From the NCBI GenBank assembly GCA_030608565.1, contig JAUWDY010000018.1:1-38595 (forward strand): 38,595 nucleotides of DNA, written 5' to 3'. The position numbers and the translations under genes were made by a program. The notes beneath the pieces were generated by a model. The model was given only the letters and a program-made list of their open reading frames with translations, made no database searches and was not told the origin of the DNA. Source of the DNA: Candidatus Bathyarchaeota archaeon (GTDB taxonomy: Archaea; Thermoproteota; Bathyarchaeia; Bathyarchaeales; Bathyarchaeaceae). This document shows positions 10,950 to 35,874 of the stretch, one piece after another (within the stretch, counting starts at the first letter, position 1; every line of letters starts with the position of its first letter).

Positions 10950-11687
10950 CTAATCGCTTTTCAAAAGGGCATTAAGGATCCAAAACAATGATGAAGAGAA
11001 TGCTACAAACAGAGCGACTTCACCCTCATTCACGCCTACAGACAGGTAAAGATGCAGAAGATAGAGTAATGGAATTAATAAGCCTGATATCTTTAAAATG
11101 TTGAAAAGAAGTTTTTTGCCAATGCGTTTTGGTGGTAAACTCCATTCTTCCAAAAGGAATGTGATATGTTTATTTGGGTCTTTTTCACAAATCTGTGTAG
11201 CAGGCTTTTCGTTCTTGAAAAAAATCACCGTGCAAAACGGCTGTTCCCTTTTAAGCGTGACACTTCTCTTTGAATGATTAGTTAATGTAACTACCATCTT
11301 TCCTTTATAGTCAGGGTCCAGAGATGTAGAAATATGAGATAGCCCTTTTTCTGCAATCGAAACTTTTGACACCAATATGCCAGAATATTCCCGATTTTGG
11401 GGCATCCCAATAAATTCCTCTGTTTCGATTGCTACAATTTCATTATGTTTTATCGTAATCCTACTGTTCCTCTTTAGACGATTAGACTTCGCTTGTGGTC
11501 GCGTAAGTCTAGTAGACATCTTCAGATAGCGCTCACCAACCCTCAAATCATATCCGACTGGTGTGAGGCATGGCCTATGAAAGGGAGCTATCAACAATTT
11601 CTCTTGTTGGGTATCAGGATCCTGCATCCAATCTCTTTTGGCGTTTATTAGAATCTCATCTATTGATGTGTCCGTAAGTAGTGTCAT
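10950..11687 (-). CDS. dUTPase/dCTP deaminase-fold protein with C-terminal membrane anchor
   Basis: 245 residues from ATG 11687, which overlaps the upstream stop as ATGA. The dUTPase/DCD beta-fold is recognisable: PVGYDLRVGERYLKM (residues ~43-57), GILVSKVSIAEKGL, the substrate-loop equivalent STSLDPDYKGKMVVTLTNHS, and REQPFCTVIFF. The C-terminal 55 residues carry two hydrophobic helices (LLFNILKISGLLIPLLYLLH and VALFVAFSSSLFWILNALL), which would tether it to the membrane. Ordinary dUTPases and DCDs are soluble, so this is unusual. The catalytic identity (dUTP hydrolysis, dCTP deamination, or only nucleotide sensing) cannot be read with confidence. It is translationally coupled to a NUDIX gene, suggesting a joint role in nucleotide-based control or defence. 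Confidence 0.75.
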   Translation of the reverse strand: MTLLTDTSIDEILINAKRDWMQDPDTQQEKLLIAPFHRPCLTPVGYDLRVGERYLKMSTRLTRPQAKSNRLKRNSRITIKHNEIVAIETEEFIGMPQNREYSGILVSKVSIAEKGLSHISTSLDPDYKGKMVVTLTNHSKRSVTLKREQPFCTVIFFKNEKPATQICEKDPNKHITFLLEEWSLPPKRIGKKLLFNILKISGLLIPLLYLLHLYLSVGVNEGEVALFVAFSSSLFWILNALLKSD

Positions 11688-12373
11688 TTCACAAGCCCCC
11701 TTGTACGCTTGTGAAGAAAATCTATTAACAATTGTGACCACGCTTCAAAACTTGATCGTTTTCTTTTCAGATGCTCGAGATCCATAAATTCCATTTTGCT
11801 CAATCCTTTTCCCTTTCGGAAAACTTTCGGCTCTTCGACTTCCAGCATCCACACTAAGCCAAAATGTACAAGACCCACCACATTGGAGTCGTCATTAACG
11901 AAGCAAAGGAGTTCAGGTCCCCTTACTATTTTAGACTGGATATTCACTTCCTCCTTGATCTCACGCCAAACTCCGCGAATAATAAAATCCAAGCCTCTGC
12001 TTTTATTGTACTGCGAGTGTGTGTGTAGTTGGCGTTGATTCTTATCCCCGACATTTACATGACCTCCTACTCCCAACGAGTATTTGTTATGTAATCTCTC
12101 TTCTCGGCTTTTCTCGGTTCTTTTGTAGATCAGATATAACTGCTCCGCTTTGATGAGTATATATACTACTAATTGTTTGTAATCATAGTTCTTCTCAGCC
12201 TTTGACCGAGAGAGCAACTCTAGGTTATCCAAGATGTCTTCCCACAATTGCACATCGTAGAAAGTCCTCTGATTGGAGATAGGATATTTTGAGAGGATGC
12301 TTCTTCTAAAGCATAATAGTTCTTCTTCGTTACGTGCTATTTTCGCACTTTTGAACATTTTCTCTTCTGCCAT
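11684..12373 (-). CDS. NUDIX hydrolase (COG4112-like)
   Basis: 229 residues. The NUDIX box is present but interrupted: LGVGGHVNVGD, then about 19 extra residues (KNQRQLHTHSQYNKSRGLDF), then IIRGVWREIKEEVNI. The REIKEE core that binds Mg2+ is intact; Asp replaces the usual first Glu. A similar insertion occurs in COG4112-type phosphoesterases. The N-terminal half (residues 1-90) is a helical/beta extension. The family cleaves nucleoside diphosphates linked to another moiety. It is first in a two-gene operon with the membrane-anchored dUTPase-like protein (ATGA overlap) and divergent from a SIR2-like gene across ~140 bp. Confidence 0.82.
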   Translation of the reverse strand: MAEEKMFKSAKIARNEEELLCFRRSILSKYPISNQRTFYDVQLWEDILDNLELLSRSKAEKNYDYKQLVVYILIKAEQLYLIYKRTEKSREERLHNKYSLGVGGHVNVGDKNQRQLHTHSQYNKSRGLDFIIRGVWREIKEEVNIQSKIVRGPELLCFVNDDSNVVGLVHFGLVWMLEVEEPKVFRKGKGLSKMEFMDLEHLKRKRSSFEAWSQLLIDFLHKRTRGLVK

Positions 12374-15622: not shown

Positions 15623-15938
15623 ACCACAAAAGAGATTGTGAAGAAATGCAAAGTGGGACTTTATGTTTACAACAGAAACCTCGCTTATTGCGCTAACTGC
15701 CAAAAAACCTTTTATGGGGTACCGCTGAAATGTCCGTTATGCGGATCAGTTAATATGCTGATTTGCTTCAGCCGTGTCTCAGCAAAGCATTTACCAGCAC
15801 CTTTTTCGAATCCAACCCAGATTTCAGCTCTAAGCAACCGAGTATCATACGTGTTAATTTCAACCTAAGTTTCGTATAAAATTTTATACAACTTCTCTAA
15901 AAATTTAAAATAGAATTACCTTCCATTTAAACAAGTTT
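15623..15938 (+). pseudogene. Duplicated 3' end of the NrdD-like gene
   Basis: The last ~82 codons, the stop and about 70 bp of downstream sequence of the NrdD-like gene ending at 33297 are repeated here on the opposite strand (parent 33231-33543). The zinc ribbon (YCANCQKTFYG, CPLCGSVNM) and the tail ending VLIST are retained with only a few substitutions. The flanking palindrome GTATAAAATTTTATAC (15874-15889) is perfect here and imperfect in the parent. No start codon with a ribosome-binding site exists, so it is a non-functional copy lying just before tRNA-Leu. Confidence 0.85.
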
Positions 15939-16177: not shown

Positions 16178-17392
16178 TCATTTCTCCTTCATTTTCTGCT
16201 CTCGCCATGCTTCACGTTCTTCCTCAGCGTACGCGTGCTTTCGTTGTCGTTCCTGCTCATCTCTATCCGCTTCTTTGATCTGCTTCCGCAACATCTCCTG
16301 TGCTAACTTAGCTAAAATCTGAAGCTCTTCTGGTGTCATCGAAGTCAAGTCAACAGTGAAATCTTTCAATTTCCTCCAGTTGTCCTTTAGATCAGCAACT
16401 TCTCTGTTCAACTCAAGGATTCTGTTCTCCAGTTTCGTCACGTCAGCTTTCATTAAAGCGTCCTCAACCTTACCGAAAACCGCGACTGCTGTTTCGCCTT
16501 TTTTGTAAAACTCTGCCAACTTGTCTTCATCGTAGCGACGATAGATGTCCGTGAGATAGCCCTTATGCCCCATCAGTGCCTCCGTTATGTCCACAGAGAT
16601 AACAGGCCCCATCCTTGTTCGGAAAAACTTCCTCAAAACGTGCGGGTGAAATTGGTGTCGTTTCGTGGACTTGTCAACACTGTTAAGTTTCGTTTTGTCC
16701 AAAGCATTCTTCCAGATGAAATGGGCGTTACTCATGCCGAAAGGGAAAAGTCTTGTATCCTCTGTTGACTTGCCATGCCTACTCCGTTTAGAAGCTGACT
16801 TCAAATACTCTGTCCGATACTTCAACCACTCTAGGATATGCTCCTTAGTTTCACCCGAGATGAAAGTGTAACGAGGATCACCCGACTTGGTGTACTCTCC
16901 TCTTATACTAATTTTAGGTGGGTCATTGTCAAGATCAATGTCGTCAAGCTCAAGCTGTAAGGCTTCGCCAATCCTCATGCCACTGCTGGCTAAGGTTAGA
17001 TACAGAGCTTTGCCGTGAACGGGCATGTGCATAATTATCCTTCGCAATTGAACATTGGAGGGTATCTTATCCATTGTTCGTGCCATGCTTCCTTTGATCT
17101 TGCGCGTTAAACTCCGCCAAAACTTCTCGGGTAGTTCAATATCGTTCTCCATTAGGAACGTTCTGACTGCTGAAATGTAAAGTCGTATCGTTTTTGGCGG
17201 TCTTCCATTGATCTTTGCTAAAAAGTTTTGTATGTCAGTTTTGTGATCTCTTGTTTCTTGGAAGTATCGTTTAGCTAAGTCTGTCAGTTCACCGTCACCG
17301 TATATGTTGCTCAGAAAAACTTTGAGAGCCTGTTTGTATGTCCTTACTGTATTCTCACTGCCATACGTTTCCAGATACTTTAACTCACTCAT
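16178..17392 (-). CDS. Full-length tyrosine recombinase/integrase
   Basis: 404 residues. The N-terminal SAM-like domain (TYGSENTVRTYKQALKVFLS) is followed by a complete catalytic domain. Arg I is in LASSGMRIGEALQLELDDID, the His-x-x-Arg box in FHPHVLRKFFRTRM, the GHKG motif in ALMGHKGYLTDIY, and the nucleophile Tyr in RRYDEDKL. A long charged coiled coil forms the C-terminus (residues ~310-404). It lies just 3' of tRNA-Leu, the usual arrangement for an element integrated into a tRNA, but no matching att repeat was found in the window. A 20-base alternating tract (16145-16164) lies just beyond the stop. Confidence 0.92.
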   Translation of the reverse strand: MSELKYLETYGSENTVRTYKQALKVFLSNIYGDGELTDLAKRYFQETRDHKTDIQNFLAKINGRPPKTIRLYISAVRTFLMENDIELPEKFWRSLTRKIKGSMARTMDKIPSNVQLRRIIMHMPVHGKALYLTLASSGMRIGEALQLELDDIDLDNDPPKISIRGEYTKSGDPRYTFISGETKEHILEWLKYRTEYLKSASKRSRHGKSTEDTRLFPFGMSNAHFIWKNALDKTKLNSVDKSTKRHQFHPHVLRKFFRTRMGPVISVDITEALMGHKGYLTDIYRRYDEDKLAEFYKKGETAVAVFGKVEDALMKADVTKLENRILELNREVADLKDNWRKLKDFTVDLTSMTPEELQILAKLAQEMLRKQIKEADRDEQERQRKHAYAEEEREAWREQKMKEK

Positions 17393-29857: not shown

Positions 29858-30864
<1,007 letters not shown>

Positions 30865-30946: not shown

Positions 30947-33055
30947 TTACCCTTTGACCAATAGTTCTTTGGCATCAAACGTTTTCCTAATCTTGTACTC
31001 GCTTTGTTTTCCATCATTCCATTGGCTAACTGGTCTTAAGTATCCGACAACCCTTGAATATACTTCACATTTTTCACCGCAACGAGGACAAGTAAAGTGT
31101 TCACCAGAGATATAACCGTGAATTGGACAAACGCTGAATGTAGGAGTAATTGTATAATAAGGCAGTTGACTTTTTTCAGCGACTCTCCTTGTTAAAACGG
31201 AAATGCTTTCCCAAGATGAATTAGATTCTCCAAGATAAATATGGAAAACGGTTCCTCCTGTGTAACGGGTTTGAAGTTTATTTTGGTGCTTTAACGCTTC
31301 AAAAAGGTTAAGTGTATTGTCGACTGGTAATTGCGATGAATTTGTATAGAAAGGTTCAATCCCGTCATTTTTTATATAATCTTCATTAGCAACAATTATG
31401 TCTGGATACTTTCTCTTATCTATCCTCGCAAGTCTGTAAGTTGCACCCTCTGCTGGAGTTGCTTCGAGATTGTAGATATTTCCAGTCTCCTCTTGATATT
31501 CGGAAAGTTCATTTTTCATAAACTCTAAAATTTTAGTTGCAAACTTTAATCCTTCTTCTGAAACAATGTTATAACCAAAGAGGTTCAAAAGTGCTTCATT
31601 TATTCCAATTAGTCCGATTGTGGAAAAGTGGTTTTTCCAATAGTTACCAAACCTTTGTTTTATAGAACGCAAATAAAACTTTGAATAGGGGTACAGTCCA
31701 TGTTCTGTAAAATTCTCAACAAGTTCTCTTTTGATTTCTAAACTCTCTTTAGCAATATTCATTAAAGTACTCAACTCTTCAAAAAATTCGTCTTCATCTT
31801 TTTTAAGGTGCCCTATTCTAGGAAGGTTTATCGTGACAACTCCAATTGAGCCTGTCAGAGGGTTGGCACCGAAGAATCCTCCGCCTCTCTTTCGCAATTC
31901 TCTGTTATCTATTCTTAATCGACAACACATGCTTCTTACATCTTCAGGCTTCATATCACTGTTTATAAAATTAGAAAAGTATGGAGTACCATATTTTGCT
32001 ACTAATTCAAACAGTTCTTGAAATTCCCAATTGAAGTTTTCAGTTACGTTATACGTGACTATTGGAAAAGTGAAAACTCCGCCTTTCTTGTCACCATGAA
32101 ACATTACTTCAATATAAGCTCTATTCAACATGTCCATTTCTGTAACAAAATCACCATAAGGCTTATCTAACATATGCCCATCGACAATAACACCGTCATC
32201 TTCCATAAATTTTGGCACTGACAAATCCATTGTGATATTTGTAAAAGGTGTTTGAAAACCTACACGGGTCGGTACATTCATATTAAATAAAAATTCTTGT
32301 AGTGCTTGTACAACTTCCTTATAGTTCAACTTGTCATAATAGATAAACGGCGCCAGATAAGTATCAAAATTGCTGAACGCTTGAGCACCAGCTGCTTCAC
32401 CTTGTAATGTAAAGAAGAAGTTGACAATTTGCCCCAATATTGTCCTAAAATGCTTCGCAGGTTTGCTCTCAATCTTTTGGGACACACCACAAAAGCCAGA
32501 AACTAGTAGGTCTCTTAGATCCCATCCTACGCAATATGGTCCCAAGACAGCAAGATCGTGTATGTGAAAAGCTCCAGACAGATGTTTTTCCCTAATGATG
32601 GGTGAATACATTCTGGTTAACCAATAGTGAGATACAAGTCGTGAAGAAAGATGATTATTCAATCCTTGAAGAGAAAAATTCATATTAGCGTTTTCACGGA
32701 TTCGCCAATCTGTACCGTTTAGATAACTATCTACCATATCATCAGAGTTTAAAAGAAATGCTAGTTCTCTCATCACTGCATGCTGTTGTCTGTATAGAAT
32801 GTAAGCCTTAGAAACTTCTACAAATTTGTTTTTAATCAAAGTCTCTTCTACAGTATCCTGTATCTCTTCTACTGTTGGAACACCTTCTTTGCCAAATTTC
32901 TTTTCTATGACCGCAACGACTTGATTACTCAATTCTTTAGATTGATTTACACTTCTTCTATCGACCGCTTGAAATGCCTTTTTAACAGCGTTAGTTATTC
33001 TATCCTGGTCAAATTCTGCTAATCTCCCATCTCTTTTCCTAACAAATGATGTCAT
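30947..33055 (-). CDS. nrdD: Anaerobic (class III) ribonucleoside-triphosphate reductase
   Basis: 702 residues. An N-terminal ATP-cone (FVRKRDGRLAEFDQDRITNA, residues 1-95) gives allosteric activity control. The catalytic barrel includes LAVLGPYCVGWDLRDLL with the first active-site Cys, and MCCRLRIDN with the thiyl-radical Cys region. The C-terminal zinc site CPIHGYISGEHFTCPRCGEK precedes the glycyl-radical loop SRVVGYLRPVSQWN with Gly671. The enzyme makes dNTPs under anoxia and needs a radical-SAM activase (NrdG), which is not in this window. A glutaredoxin-like remnant lies directly upstream. Confidence 0.97.
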   Translation of the reverse strand: MTSFVRKRDGRLAEFDQDRITNAVKKAFQAVDRRSVNQSKELSNQVVAVIEKKFGKEGVPTVEEIQDTVEETLIKNKFVEVSKAYILYRQQHAVMRELAFLLNSDDMVDSYLNGTDWRIRENANMNFSLQGLNNHLSSRLVSHYWLTRMYSPIIREKHLSGAFHIHDLAVLGPYCVGWDLRDLLVSGFCGVSQKIESKPAKHFRTILGQIVNFFFTLQGEAAGAQAFSNFDTYLAPFIYYDKLNYKEVVQALQEFLFNMNVPTRVGFQTPFTNITMDLSVPKFMEDDGVIVDGHMLDKPYGDFVTEMDMLNRAYIEVMFHGDKKGGVFTFPIVTYNVTENFNWEFQELFELVAKYGTPYFSNFINSDMKPEDVRSMCCRLRIDNRELRKRGGGFFGANPLTGSIGVVTINLPRIGHLKKDEDEFFEELSTLMNIAKESLEIKRELVENFTEHGLYPYSKFYLRSIKQRFGNYWKNHFSTIGLIGINEALLNLFGYNIVSEEGLKFATKILEFMKNELSEYQEETGNIYNLEATPAEGATYRLARIDKRKYPDIIVANEDYIKNDGIEPFYTNSSQLPVDNTLNLFEALKHQNKLQTRYTGGTVFHIYLGESNSSWESISVLTRRVAEKSQLPYYTITPTFSVCPIHGYISGEHFTCPRCGEKCEVYSRVVGYLRPVSQWNDGKQSEYKIRKTFDAKELLVKG

Positions 33056-33056
33056 T

Positions 33057-33207
33057 TCAGGTCACGTTCCCAGCTTTTCTCAACTCATGTTCATTACCAT
33101 TCTTTAAGCATAGCACATCTGGGGCACCCACTAGATGTGTAGACCACGATTCTATCATCTTGTGGCACGTGCCCGAGAGAGCCAACGGAATATTTTAAAG
33201 AACCCAT
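33057..33207 (-). pseudogene. Glutaredoxin/NrdH-like remnant upstream of nrdD
   Basis: From ATG 33207, with GAGGGA five to six bases upstream, the frame reads MGSLKYSVGSLGHVPQDDRI, then VVYTSSGCPRCAMLKEW and a stop at 33094. One frame over it continues NEHELRKAGNVT-stop, ending at the nrdD start. A two-base correction near 33093 would give ...LKEWLNEHELRKAGNVT, about 50 residues. The C-P-R-C site after V-V-Y-T-S-S-G is the glutaredoxin/NrdH active site. It is shorter than an intact NrdH (~75-80), so I call it a broken or minimal redox partner for the reductase. Confidence 0.6.
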
Positions 33208-33296
33208 GAGAATCCCTCGTAACGCAAGGATGACATAAATGGAAGATAATTCTATTTTAAATTTTTAGAGAAGTTGTATAAAATTTTGTACGAAAT

Positions 33297-35606
33297 TCAA
33301 GTTGAAATTAACACATACGATACTCGGTTGCTTAGAGCTGAAATCTGGGCTTGATTCGAAAAAGGTGCCGGTAAATGCTTTGCTGAGACACGGCTGAAGC
33401 AAATAAGCATATTAACTGATCCGCATGACGGACATTTCAGCGGTATCCCATAAAAGGTTTTTTGGCAGTTAGCACAATAAGCGAGGTTTCTGTTGTAAGC
33501 ATAAAGTCCAACTTTATATTTCTTCACAATTTCTTTTGTGGTCGCCAAGAGTTCATCTGGGTCTTGCTTGGAATCAGCAAGTTGTATGATTGCGAGGTGG
33601 CTTCCCGGAGTTAGTTCGTGAAACTCTTCTTCAATGTGTAATCGACCCCTCCAAGAGACTTTGTTTGTTAAAGGCACAGCAACCATGTCTGTGTAAAAAG
33701 GTTGTTCTCTGGCGCCTTGAACGTGAACCTTTGCCCAGCCACAATGTTCCACATCCAGTTCCGCCAGCCTCTTCGCCGTGTTAATGCTGGGCACCATAGA
33801 GAGAGCCACACGAGTTTCAGGTTTCTTCGCGTAACTTTGAACAGTTTTAGAAAGGTGTTCTACTGTTTCTTTGGCAAAATCTATGGCTTCGTTATCCTCG
33901 TTTATAGCTTTCCCGAGGAATGACTCTACTGTTTCGTTCAGCCCGACAAAACTGACGAGGCGAGTAGCGTTTTCAAGCCTGAAATAGTGGTTGCCGTCGG
34001 CTTTCTGTGTAAGGAATGGAAGTAGTCCTTCTCTTGCGCGTTGCTTGAGCGTTCGATACTTTATTTCTAACGCACGGCACACCATCTCTAGTCGTTCATC
34101 TAAAAGCTTAAAGAACATGGGTTGACTTCCTTCGGCATCGTATGAAGCTCTTGGCAAATTTAGTGTGACGCTGTCGATGCATCCTGTTTGCAGTGTGTCG
34201 AGTTCCCAGTCTCCTTTCCAGTCGGTGGCAAATCTGCATCCTGTCGCGGTGTAAGAGGTGTACTTTTGTTTTTTGGAGCATAAGTTTGCGAAGTATGGAA
34301 TACCTCTCTTGGCTGCAAGTTGATGGGATTGAAAGAGAATATCCTCGCATTCTTTGTTTCTCAGCACTTCTGGGCGTATTTTTACGATTAAACTTGGGTT
34401 GAAGACTGGTTTGTGCTTGTTGTCTTCAAGCATCACTTCAAGGAGAAGAGAGGCAATGAGGTGACTTTCTTCAACGAAATCCCCGTAGCGGGCAACCTTC
34501 TTACCGCTAGGTCCGATGGCCTTCTTTTTTTCTAGGAAGTCGGGAACAACAAGTTCTAAACCTAGCGATGCTCCGATAGGAAAACCTTCGTTTGACAAGG
34601 ATTGATTAAGGTTGAAGACAAAGGTGCGTAGGGATTTCCGAATTCTTTCTTCTGATAGACCTTGGGCGAATGGTGCCAAGAAAATGTTGAAGTAATCGAA
34701 TGCTTGTTCTCCTGAAGTTTCTGTTGAGGCGATTTTGAGGATGTTGGATACTGTTGAAAGCGCGGATTCGAGGCTTTTCGGGGGAAGGGATGACAGCCCT
34801 ATGAGACTCGTTCTTCCAAGATTTAGTCCGTGTTGAAGGAAGAAACGGAGGTCATGCATGAACTCGTTTGGTTTTAGAATCCAGTAGCCGAGGTTGTTGA
34901 GGTGGAGTCTTCCGGAGAGGTGGGCGTCGGCGATATCTCTGGGAAGCACATTGAGCAGAGTGTACTCTTCAAGTACTGCGTCGCCTGCTGCCTTGTGAAC
35001 AGCTTCAACGCCCAGAGATGTGGTGCCTTTTGACTGTATTAGTTGGGTGACATCGTAGACTGGAAGCCCTAAACGTGTGAGTTTGTGTCGATATTCTTCA
35101 AGTCCTTTTTCCACTAGGACCGCGTTGACGAACTCTCGGATAAGCGGGGCTGTGAGGTATTTTGTCTTGAATTCTGATAGGCGCCCTTCGGTTTCTCGTG
35201 CAATCTTTTGTGCCAAGTCTATAGGAACGTTTGCTTCCCGGGCGAGAGAGTCAATGATTTTGTTTCTGTCGAATTCTTCCATCGCCAAACGTGAGGTGCG
35301 GACAAGCATTTTCTTTCTTTTGAAGAAGTGTTTCTCGATGTGTTCGGTCATGTCAATGATTGTGCGTCCGAGGTCGGTTAGGCGGTATTTCTTGGCTTCC
35401 GCGTCGGGTTCGATGAGGTCTGCTTTCAGAAGGTATTTGAGGTGGTATGCGAATCGGCCTGCGTCTCTTGTGGGGTTGAGGCGTAGGATTTTCATGATTT
35501 CGGTGTAGGAGAGTGGGCCTCTGTTTAAGAGAAGGTTTAGTACTTTTAGTCTCATTGATGACGAGACTGCTTTGAGTACTCTTAGTCCTGATCGTCTGCG
35601 GGGCAA
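33297..35606 (-). CDS. wHTH-ATP cone-NrdD-like protein lacking the glycyl radical
   Basis: 769 residues from TTG 35606, with GGAGG eight bases upstream; TTG 35621 is also open. Order: ArsR-like winged helix (MRLKVLNLLLNRGPLSYTEI, FAYHLKYLLKADLIEPDAEA), an ATP-cone (VRTSRLAMEEFDRNKIIDSL), then a barrel homologous to anaerobic NrdD, and a C-terminal zinc ribbon (YCANCQKTFYGIPLKCPSCG). Where nrdD has SRVVGYLRPVSQWN, this has SRVSAKHLPAPFSN: the radical Gly is Ala. The first active-site Cys (GPYCVGWD in nrdD) is also absent (LGYWILKPNEF), while one Cys in TATGCRFATDW remains. Catalysis by the class III mechanism is excluded. I infer a DNA-binding, nucleotide-sensing regulator, perhaps of the adjacent nrdD. 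Confidence 0.85.
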   Translation of the reverse strand: MPRRRSGLRVLKAVSSSMRLKVLNLLLNRGPLSYTEIMKILRLNPTRDAGRFAYHLKYLLKADLIEPDAEAKKYRLTDLGRTIIDMTEHIEKHFFKRKKMLVRTSRLAMEEFDRNKIIDSLAREANVPIDLAQKIARETEGRLSEFKTKYLTAPLIREFVNAVLVEKGLEEYRHKLTRLGLPVYDVTQLIQSKGTTSLGVEAVHKAAGDAVLEEYTLLNVLPRDIADAHLSGRLHLNNLGYWILKPNEFMHDLRFFLQHGLNLGRTSLIGLSSLPPKSLESALSTVSNILKIASTETSGEQAFDYFNIFLAPFAQGLSEERIRKSLRTFVFNLNQSLSNEGFPIGASLGLELVVPDFLEKKKAIGPSGKKVARYGDFVEESHLIASLLLEVMLEDNKHKPVFNPSLIVKIRPEVLRNKECEDILFQSHQLAAKRGIPYFANLCSKKQKYTSYTATGCRFATDWKGDWELDTLQTGCIDSVTLNLPRASYDAEGSQPMFFKLLDERLEMVCRALEIKYRTLKQRAREGLLPFLTQKADGNHYFRLENATRLVSFVGLNETVESFLGKAINEDNEAIDFAKETVEHLSKTVQSYAKKPETRVALSMVPSINTAKRLAELDVEHCGWAKVHVQGAREQPFYTDMVAVPLTNKVSWRGRLHIEEEFHELTPGSHLAIIQLADSKQDPDELLATTKEIVKKYKVGLYAYNRNLAYCANCQKTFYGIPLKCPSCGSVNMLICFSRVSAKHLPAPFSNQAQISALSNRVSYVLIST

Positions 35607-35874
35607 AACACTGTCCTCCAATGGGATTACTAGTGTTGTCTTAGTTTAAAAAATTGTAGTAGGCTTGGTTTTGTGTGTGCGTGTGATGGGTCTAGGTATA
35701 GAAGAGATTGACTTCGTTTTCACAAAGTGTTGTGAAATGTGGTGCTTTCAGACAATTTAATTGATTTGTTTTTTGAAACTGATTATGTAAACGTGTTTAG
35801 CTTTTTTATGAAGGAGTGGTAAATGGGTTGATAAAGCCAAAAGAAATCTTCTTGGAGATACGTGACTTTCGTTC

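Follow-up and report, generated by a model that had tools for sequence, protein, structure and literature searches.

The window analysed here, a 38,595-nucleotide stretch of DNA from a Candidatus Bathyarchaeota archaeon, carries two genes related to nrdD one after the other. One encodes an ordinary class III ribonucleotide reductase (RNR), and the other, immediately upstream, encodes a protein that has the same barrel but also an N-terminal winged helix (wHTH) and an altered active site. This locus therefore raises the question of what a reductase-like protein of this kind does beside a working reductase. A first-pass annotation of the sequence had proposed that it senses nucleotides and controls the transcription of nrdD or other dNTP genes.

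That annotation had read an ArsR-like winged helix, an ATP-cone, an NrdD-like barrel and a zinc ribbon into a single chain, and profile searches, a structural model and fold comparison all bear this out (Table 1). Pfam searches with the open reading frame returned the NRDD family at residues 206-745 (E 4.6e-94), the ATP-cone at residues 106-177 (27.2 bits, cut-off 25.8) and the DUF7347 wHTH at residues 15-90 (30.8 bits, cut-off 27.6), with a borderline score for HTH_5 (21.7, cut-off 22). A family member from an ammonia oxidiser matches the DUF7347 wHTH with 40.8 bits. An AlphaFold2 model of the window protein, with 61 orthologues as input, has a mean pLDDT of 88 and a pTM of 0.78. The top solved structures retrieved for this model by Foldseek are all class III RNRs (9dca_A, E 5.7e-30; 8p2s_B), and the viral proteins matched are mainly RNRs. 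A contig scan for relatives of the window protein recovered close relatives only. The score of the protein against the NrdD model TIGR02487 falls just over the cut-off (326.4 versus 326.35), so annotation pipelines will call it a reductase.

The span originally assigned to the gene, 33297-35621, stands as an open reading frame, but its start needs to be revised. Translation most likely begins at the in-frame TTG at 35606 rather than at 35621, because the orthologues start with M/L-P-R-R-R and a GGAGG at 35615-35619 is positioned 8 nt ahead of the later codon. Residue numbers of the window protein are nevertheless counted from the earlier start, TTG 35621, throughout.

Table 1. Features of the regulator-nrdD locus, with positions in the window
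Feature	Position	Strand	Remarks
pyrB-like aspartate carbamoyltransferase	29944-30864	+	Syntenic convergent neighbour; named from sequence
Replaced segment	30876-33087	-	Flanks 94.3% and 92.6% identical to L040 (G066), inside non-homologous
Active class III RNR nrdD, PRK08270 type	30947-33055	-	Next gene downstream; Gly and both Cys intact
Truncated glutaredoxin (NrdH/YruB-like) remnant	33088-33207	-	Intact in G066 (L040); cut by nrdD replacement
Candidate operator ('RNR box') TACAAAATTTTATACA	33275-33290	-	Pseudo-palindromic; upstream of nrdD
wHTH, ATP-cone, dead NrdD barrel and zinc ribbon protein	33297-35606	-	769 aa counted from TTG 35606
C-terminal tail replacing glycyl radical loop	33300-33407	-	Ala747 at 33381-33383
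Zinc ribbon CxxC...CxxC	33423-33476	-	C716, C719, C730, C733; conserved 64/64
NrdD barrel	33492-35009	-	Residues 205-710; E253 = T4 C79 column, C462 kept (T4 C290)
ATP-cone-like domain	35052-35306	-	Residues 106-190; VRTSR in place of VxKRDG
Winged helix	35328-35600	-	Residues 8-98; recognition helix RDAGRFAYHLK; Pfam match and orthologue conservation
TATA-like core promoter AATTTTTTAAAC of regulator gene	35644-35655	-	Conserved in most f1 members examined

We next consider the active site, in which the radical glycine had been reported to be an alanine and the first active-site cysteine to be missing. Both observations hold for the window protein, in which Ala747, followed by Lys748, occupies the radical-Gly column and Glu253 the column of the first cysteine (T4 C79), and the losses extend across the orthologues. 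Among 64 Bathyarchaeial orthologues, Gly is found in the radical column of 4 and is absent from 60, the first cysteine is retained by none, and the thiyl cysteine (T4 C290 column; Cys462 in the window protein) is kept by 13 and lost from 51. The four cysteines of the zinc ribbon are intact in every one of these proteins. The family has also lost the NxN flap and the loop-2 Gln. For comparison, the Gly, the Tyr and both Cys are present in all 26 ordinary NrdD proteins compared from the same genomes. Most of the 22 orthologues from outside the class likewise lack the catalytic residues, and a G-Y motif together with the active-site Cys pair, which would have spoken against the proposal, occurs in none of 102 orthologues. 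Only in L080 and L140 does the tail contain a G-Y string close to the expected position, and L080 is without both Cys. Fewer than 12 residues follow the zinc ribbon in 17 of the 102, and the chain ends at or before the radical position in many. We conclude that window-type proteins are almost certainly catalytically dead reductases.

The pattern of conservation points to the N-terminal part of the chain. Overall pairwise dN/dS values lie between 0.06 and 0.23, and the wHTH and cone usually have the lowest; mean column identity is 70% over the wHTH and cone (36 orthologues) versus 54% over the whole chain (61 orthologues). Within the recognition helix, D, A, G, F, Y, H and L are invariant in 36 diverse orthologues. 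The first-pass reading depended on a winged helix that retains DNA-binding residues, and the helix DAG[RK]FxYHL is indeed near-invariant in Bathyarchaeia. Judged from its sequence, the window-type protein is very probably a DNA-binding regulator. The case made for the ATP-cone is weaker than claimed: the profile match stands, but almost all members have VRTSR at the usual VxKRDG nucleotide-binding site and the usual K-R is missing, so binding of ATP or dATP by the cone cannot be assumed. VRTSR is also found in the cone of an NrdD clade with an intact active site (L062-L064, L092 and L095), which in cone sequence may be the nearest working relative.

Of 257 genomes in the class, 199 encode the wHTH-cone part. 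The family as a whole is spread over many families of the phylum, several of which carry archaeal amoA and are therefore ammonia oxidisers, a group living in oceans and soils. The ammonia-oxidiser version is shorter, ends just past the zinc ribbon and has drifted most in its central barrel. Ordinary NrdD was not found in the ammonia-oxidiser genomes searched, in which matches to the family profile are pieces of the dead protein only, and no NrdG2-type activase scored above the cut-off in the three such genomes tested.

Could the protein nonetheless still be catalytic, with an alanyl (aminoacyl) radical taking over from the glycyl radical? Radicals on Ala, Ser or Thr are known from other enzymes (PMC11528403), some of which have Ala at the Gly position, and so do 23 of the 64 Bathyarchaeial orthologues. 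However, the enzymes with such radicals in that survey lie on the PFL side and keep their catalytic Cys, whereas the whole radical loop is eroded in the dead family, and the class III RNRs surveyed have only Gly (PMC11528403). The loss of the first cysteine from all 64 orthologues, the frequent loss of the second, the missing flap, the chains that stop short of the radical position or carry other kinds of residue there and the activase result in ammonia oxidisers all count against this reading, which we strongly disfavour as highly improbable. Loss of catalytic residues would also be seen in a decaying pseudogene, and a partial copy of the 3' end of the gene is present at 15623-15929. Reading frames are, however, intact in orthologues across the phylum and dN/dS is in the range given above, and these selection and distribution data leave the pseudogene explanation with a negligible probability and rule it out.

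The survey of wHTH-cone-NrdD fusions and their neighbours that had been suggested was carried out within the phylum and revealed a strong linkage to RNR genes. An RNR gene is the next gene in 32 of 92 loci, representing 12 families, and is downstream and on the same strand every time. These genes divide into 16 nrdD and 16 class II nrdJ. The target would not be nrdD alone, since nrdJ adjoins the gene in 13 of 13 ammonia-oxidiser loci and the f18 neighbour is also a class II NrdJ. The search found no directly adjacent RNR gene in the other 60 loci, although contig ends may cut some of these, and the protein would therefore act in trans at unlinked loci. A dCTP deaminase/dUTPase-like gene (10950-11741) encodes a further dNTP enzyme in the window.

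In a tree of the barrel, 49 dead and 21 ordinary proteins are split by one fully supported branch. The regulator-adjacent nrdDs are scattered over several clades of this tree, indicating that the RNR partner has been replaced while the regulator was kept. The window species provides an example, because its nrdD belongs to a different clade from that of the close relative G066. As read from the alignment of the two loci, the replacement in the window species is recent, with its edges still visible, and it spared the regulator, the DNA just behind it and the promoter box.

This box is a candidate operator located between the regulator and nrdD. The pattern TACA[AG][AC]ATTTTATACA recurs at this site in families f1 and f6, at a variable distance from the regulator stop. 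We scored matches to the full 16-mer with at most one mismatch, genome-wide by pattern search; TTTATACA half-sites alone are TATA-box-like and were dropped as a signal. In 2.07 Mb of loci, overlapping ones included, all 29 matches are at regulator-nrdD sites or at a local copy (15875-15890), and in 27 whole genomes the box is usually a single match ahead of nrdD. The RNR box precedes nrdD in most genomes of f1 and f6 and is found almost nowhere else. Off-locus matches in G182 and G120 lie within coding sequence or at its margin, two of the extra G182 matches being inside it. A further off-locus match is present in G198. A second G182 box ahead of an unlinked nrdD was rejected as independent support and not counted: 100-N scaffold gaps abut both boxes and 162 nt are 91% alike, so this probably represents a single locus that the assembly has split. 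The core of the box is identical on both strands except for one pair and thus fits a dimeric wHTH, and we infer that the window-type protein would bind it. The box was not seen ahead of the regulator gene itself or found in ammonia oxidisers, and comparison of upstream inverted repeats identified no shared motif ahead of unlinked Bathyarchaeia nrdJ genes. A perfect or near-perfect palindrome, TATGAANTTCATA, precedes nrdJ in most representatives of a single Nitrosopumilaceae genus (L110-L112, L150-L169), and its conservation is mainly confined to that genus. The partial copy at 15623-15929 is inverted (94%), comprises the regulator 3' end together with the RNR box, lies 17.3 kb from the gene and adjoins a XerA-like tyrosine recombinase gene (16178-17392).

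The association with RNR genes could also reflect control of the enzyme rather than of its gene, with the dead NrdD subunit joining active NrdD in mixed dimers or larger assemblies and the wHTH serving only for protein contacts or autoregulation. The protein shares its fold and dimer family with the neighbouring NrdD and is co-oriented with the RNR gene. However, the two proteins are only 26-34% identical, the recognition helix is better conserved than the barrel, and the gene next door in f18 and in ammonia oxidisers encodes NrdJ, an enzyme of another class, with ordinary NrdD not found in the ammonia-oxidiser genomes searched; we consider this reading unlikely. A pyrimidine-synthesis target (pyrB/pyrI), or a broader regulon, instead of RNR is raised by the pyrB-like gene, which is a convergent neighbour in many Bathyarchaeial families and in many loci lies within ~35 nt. 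The two genes meet tail-to-tail and so have no shared promoter, while the box is ahead of nrdD and the conserved neighbour in ammonia oxidisers is nrdJ, and a pyrimidine target is accordingly rather improbable. The reading that we prefer, on the basis of the dead catalytic sites, selection, phylum-wide conservation, linkage to RNRs of two classes and the conserved box, is that the window-type protein acts as a one-component regulator of transcription specifically for RNR genes. We regard this as probable, and it is likewise probable that RNR genes are what the regulator is directed to.

Each part of this protein has counterparts in known systems. Class III NrdD proteins (Prevotella copri 8p23/8p2s, S. 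thermophilus 9d3x, T4 1h78, T. maritima 4coi) share with it the barrel fold, the cone position, the NLPR and GLxE motifs and the C-terminal zinc ribbon, whereas it lacks their radical Gly, active-site Cys pair, NxN flap and loop-2 Gln and adds the N-terminal wHTH. Its N-terminal 90 residues resemble ArsR-like/DUF7347 winged-helix regulators, to which it adds the cone and reductase barrel. The MocR/GabR and ROK regulators are fusions of a wHTH to a borrowed metabolic-enzyme fold, that of an aminotransferase or a sugar kinase, which serves as the sensor. The fusion logic of the window protein is the same but the presumed sensor fold is different, and we know of no regulator of the MocR/GabR/ROK type with an RNR-derived sensor. 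The bacterial RNR repressor NrdR (TIGR00244; PMC9110341) likewise combines an ATP-cone with a zinc ribbon and offers the same idea of an RNR-linked regulator. However, NrdR is ~150 aa long and its Zn-ribbon comes first and binds DNA, whereas the window protein would bind DNA through its wHTH and has a C-terminal ribbon, a degenerate cone and a full barrel. TIGR00244 matches neither the window protein nor anything in the window genome, and among the 43 genomes screened only 7 have an NrdR match over the cut-off. Few archaea have NrdR (PMC9110341). At L099 (G185:C20) a bacterial-type nrdD has an nrdR close by (G185:C20:115208-115633), which suggests that this NrdR came with its own nrdD. In the open-access literature searched, we found no description of a wHTH-NrdD regulator or of any other RNR-dedicated regulator for the phylum.

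In the mechanism that we propose, the protein would derive from a class III RNR that gave up its radical and reductant chemistry and came to follow a dimeric wHTH in one chain. The ligand sensor would be the barrel, a (d)NTP-binding dimer in working NrdD, and/or the degenerate cone, although the chances that either of them senses nucleotides seem evenly balanced. The wHTH pair would then bind the pseudo-palindromic box in the RNR promoter, here that of nrdD, and expression of the RNR gene would change with (d)NTP state, by either repression or activation. More tentatively, the family may constitute a phylum-wide RNR regulator that functionally replaces NrdR, has a whole dead RNR as its dNTP sensor, stays with RNR promoters as the RNR is swapped (nrdD clades, nrdJ) and has a box such as TACAAAATTTTATACA as its recognition site.

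The family thus offers a concrete candidate RNR regulator in organisms that include the abundant ammonia oxidisers, with a reductase reused as the likely sensor, and it is probably the regulator of DNA-precursor synthesis that had been missing for archaea. It also means that 'anaerobic ribonucleoside-triphosphate reductase' labels in aerobic archaea may mark proteins that are not enzymes, leading to misleading metabolic reconstructions.
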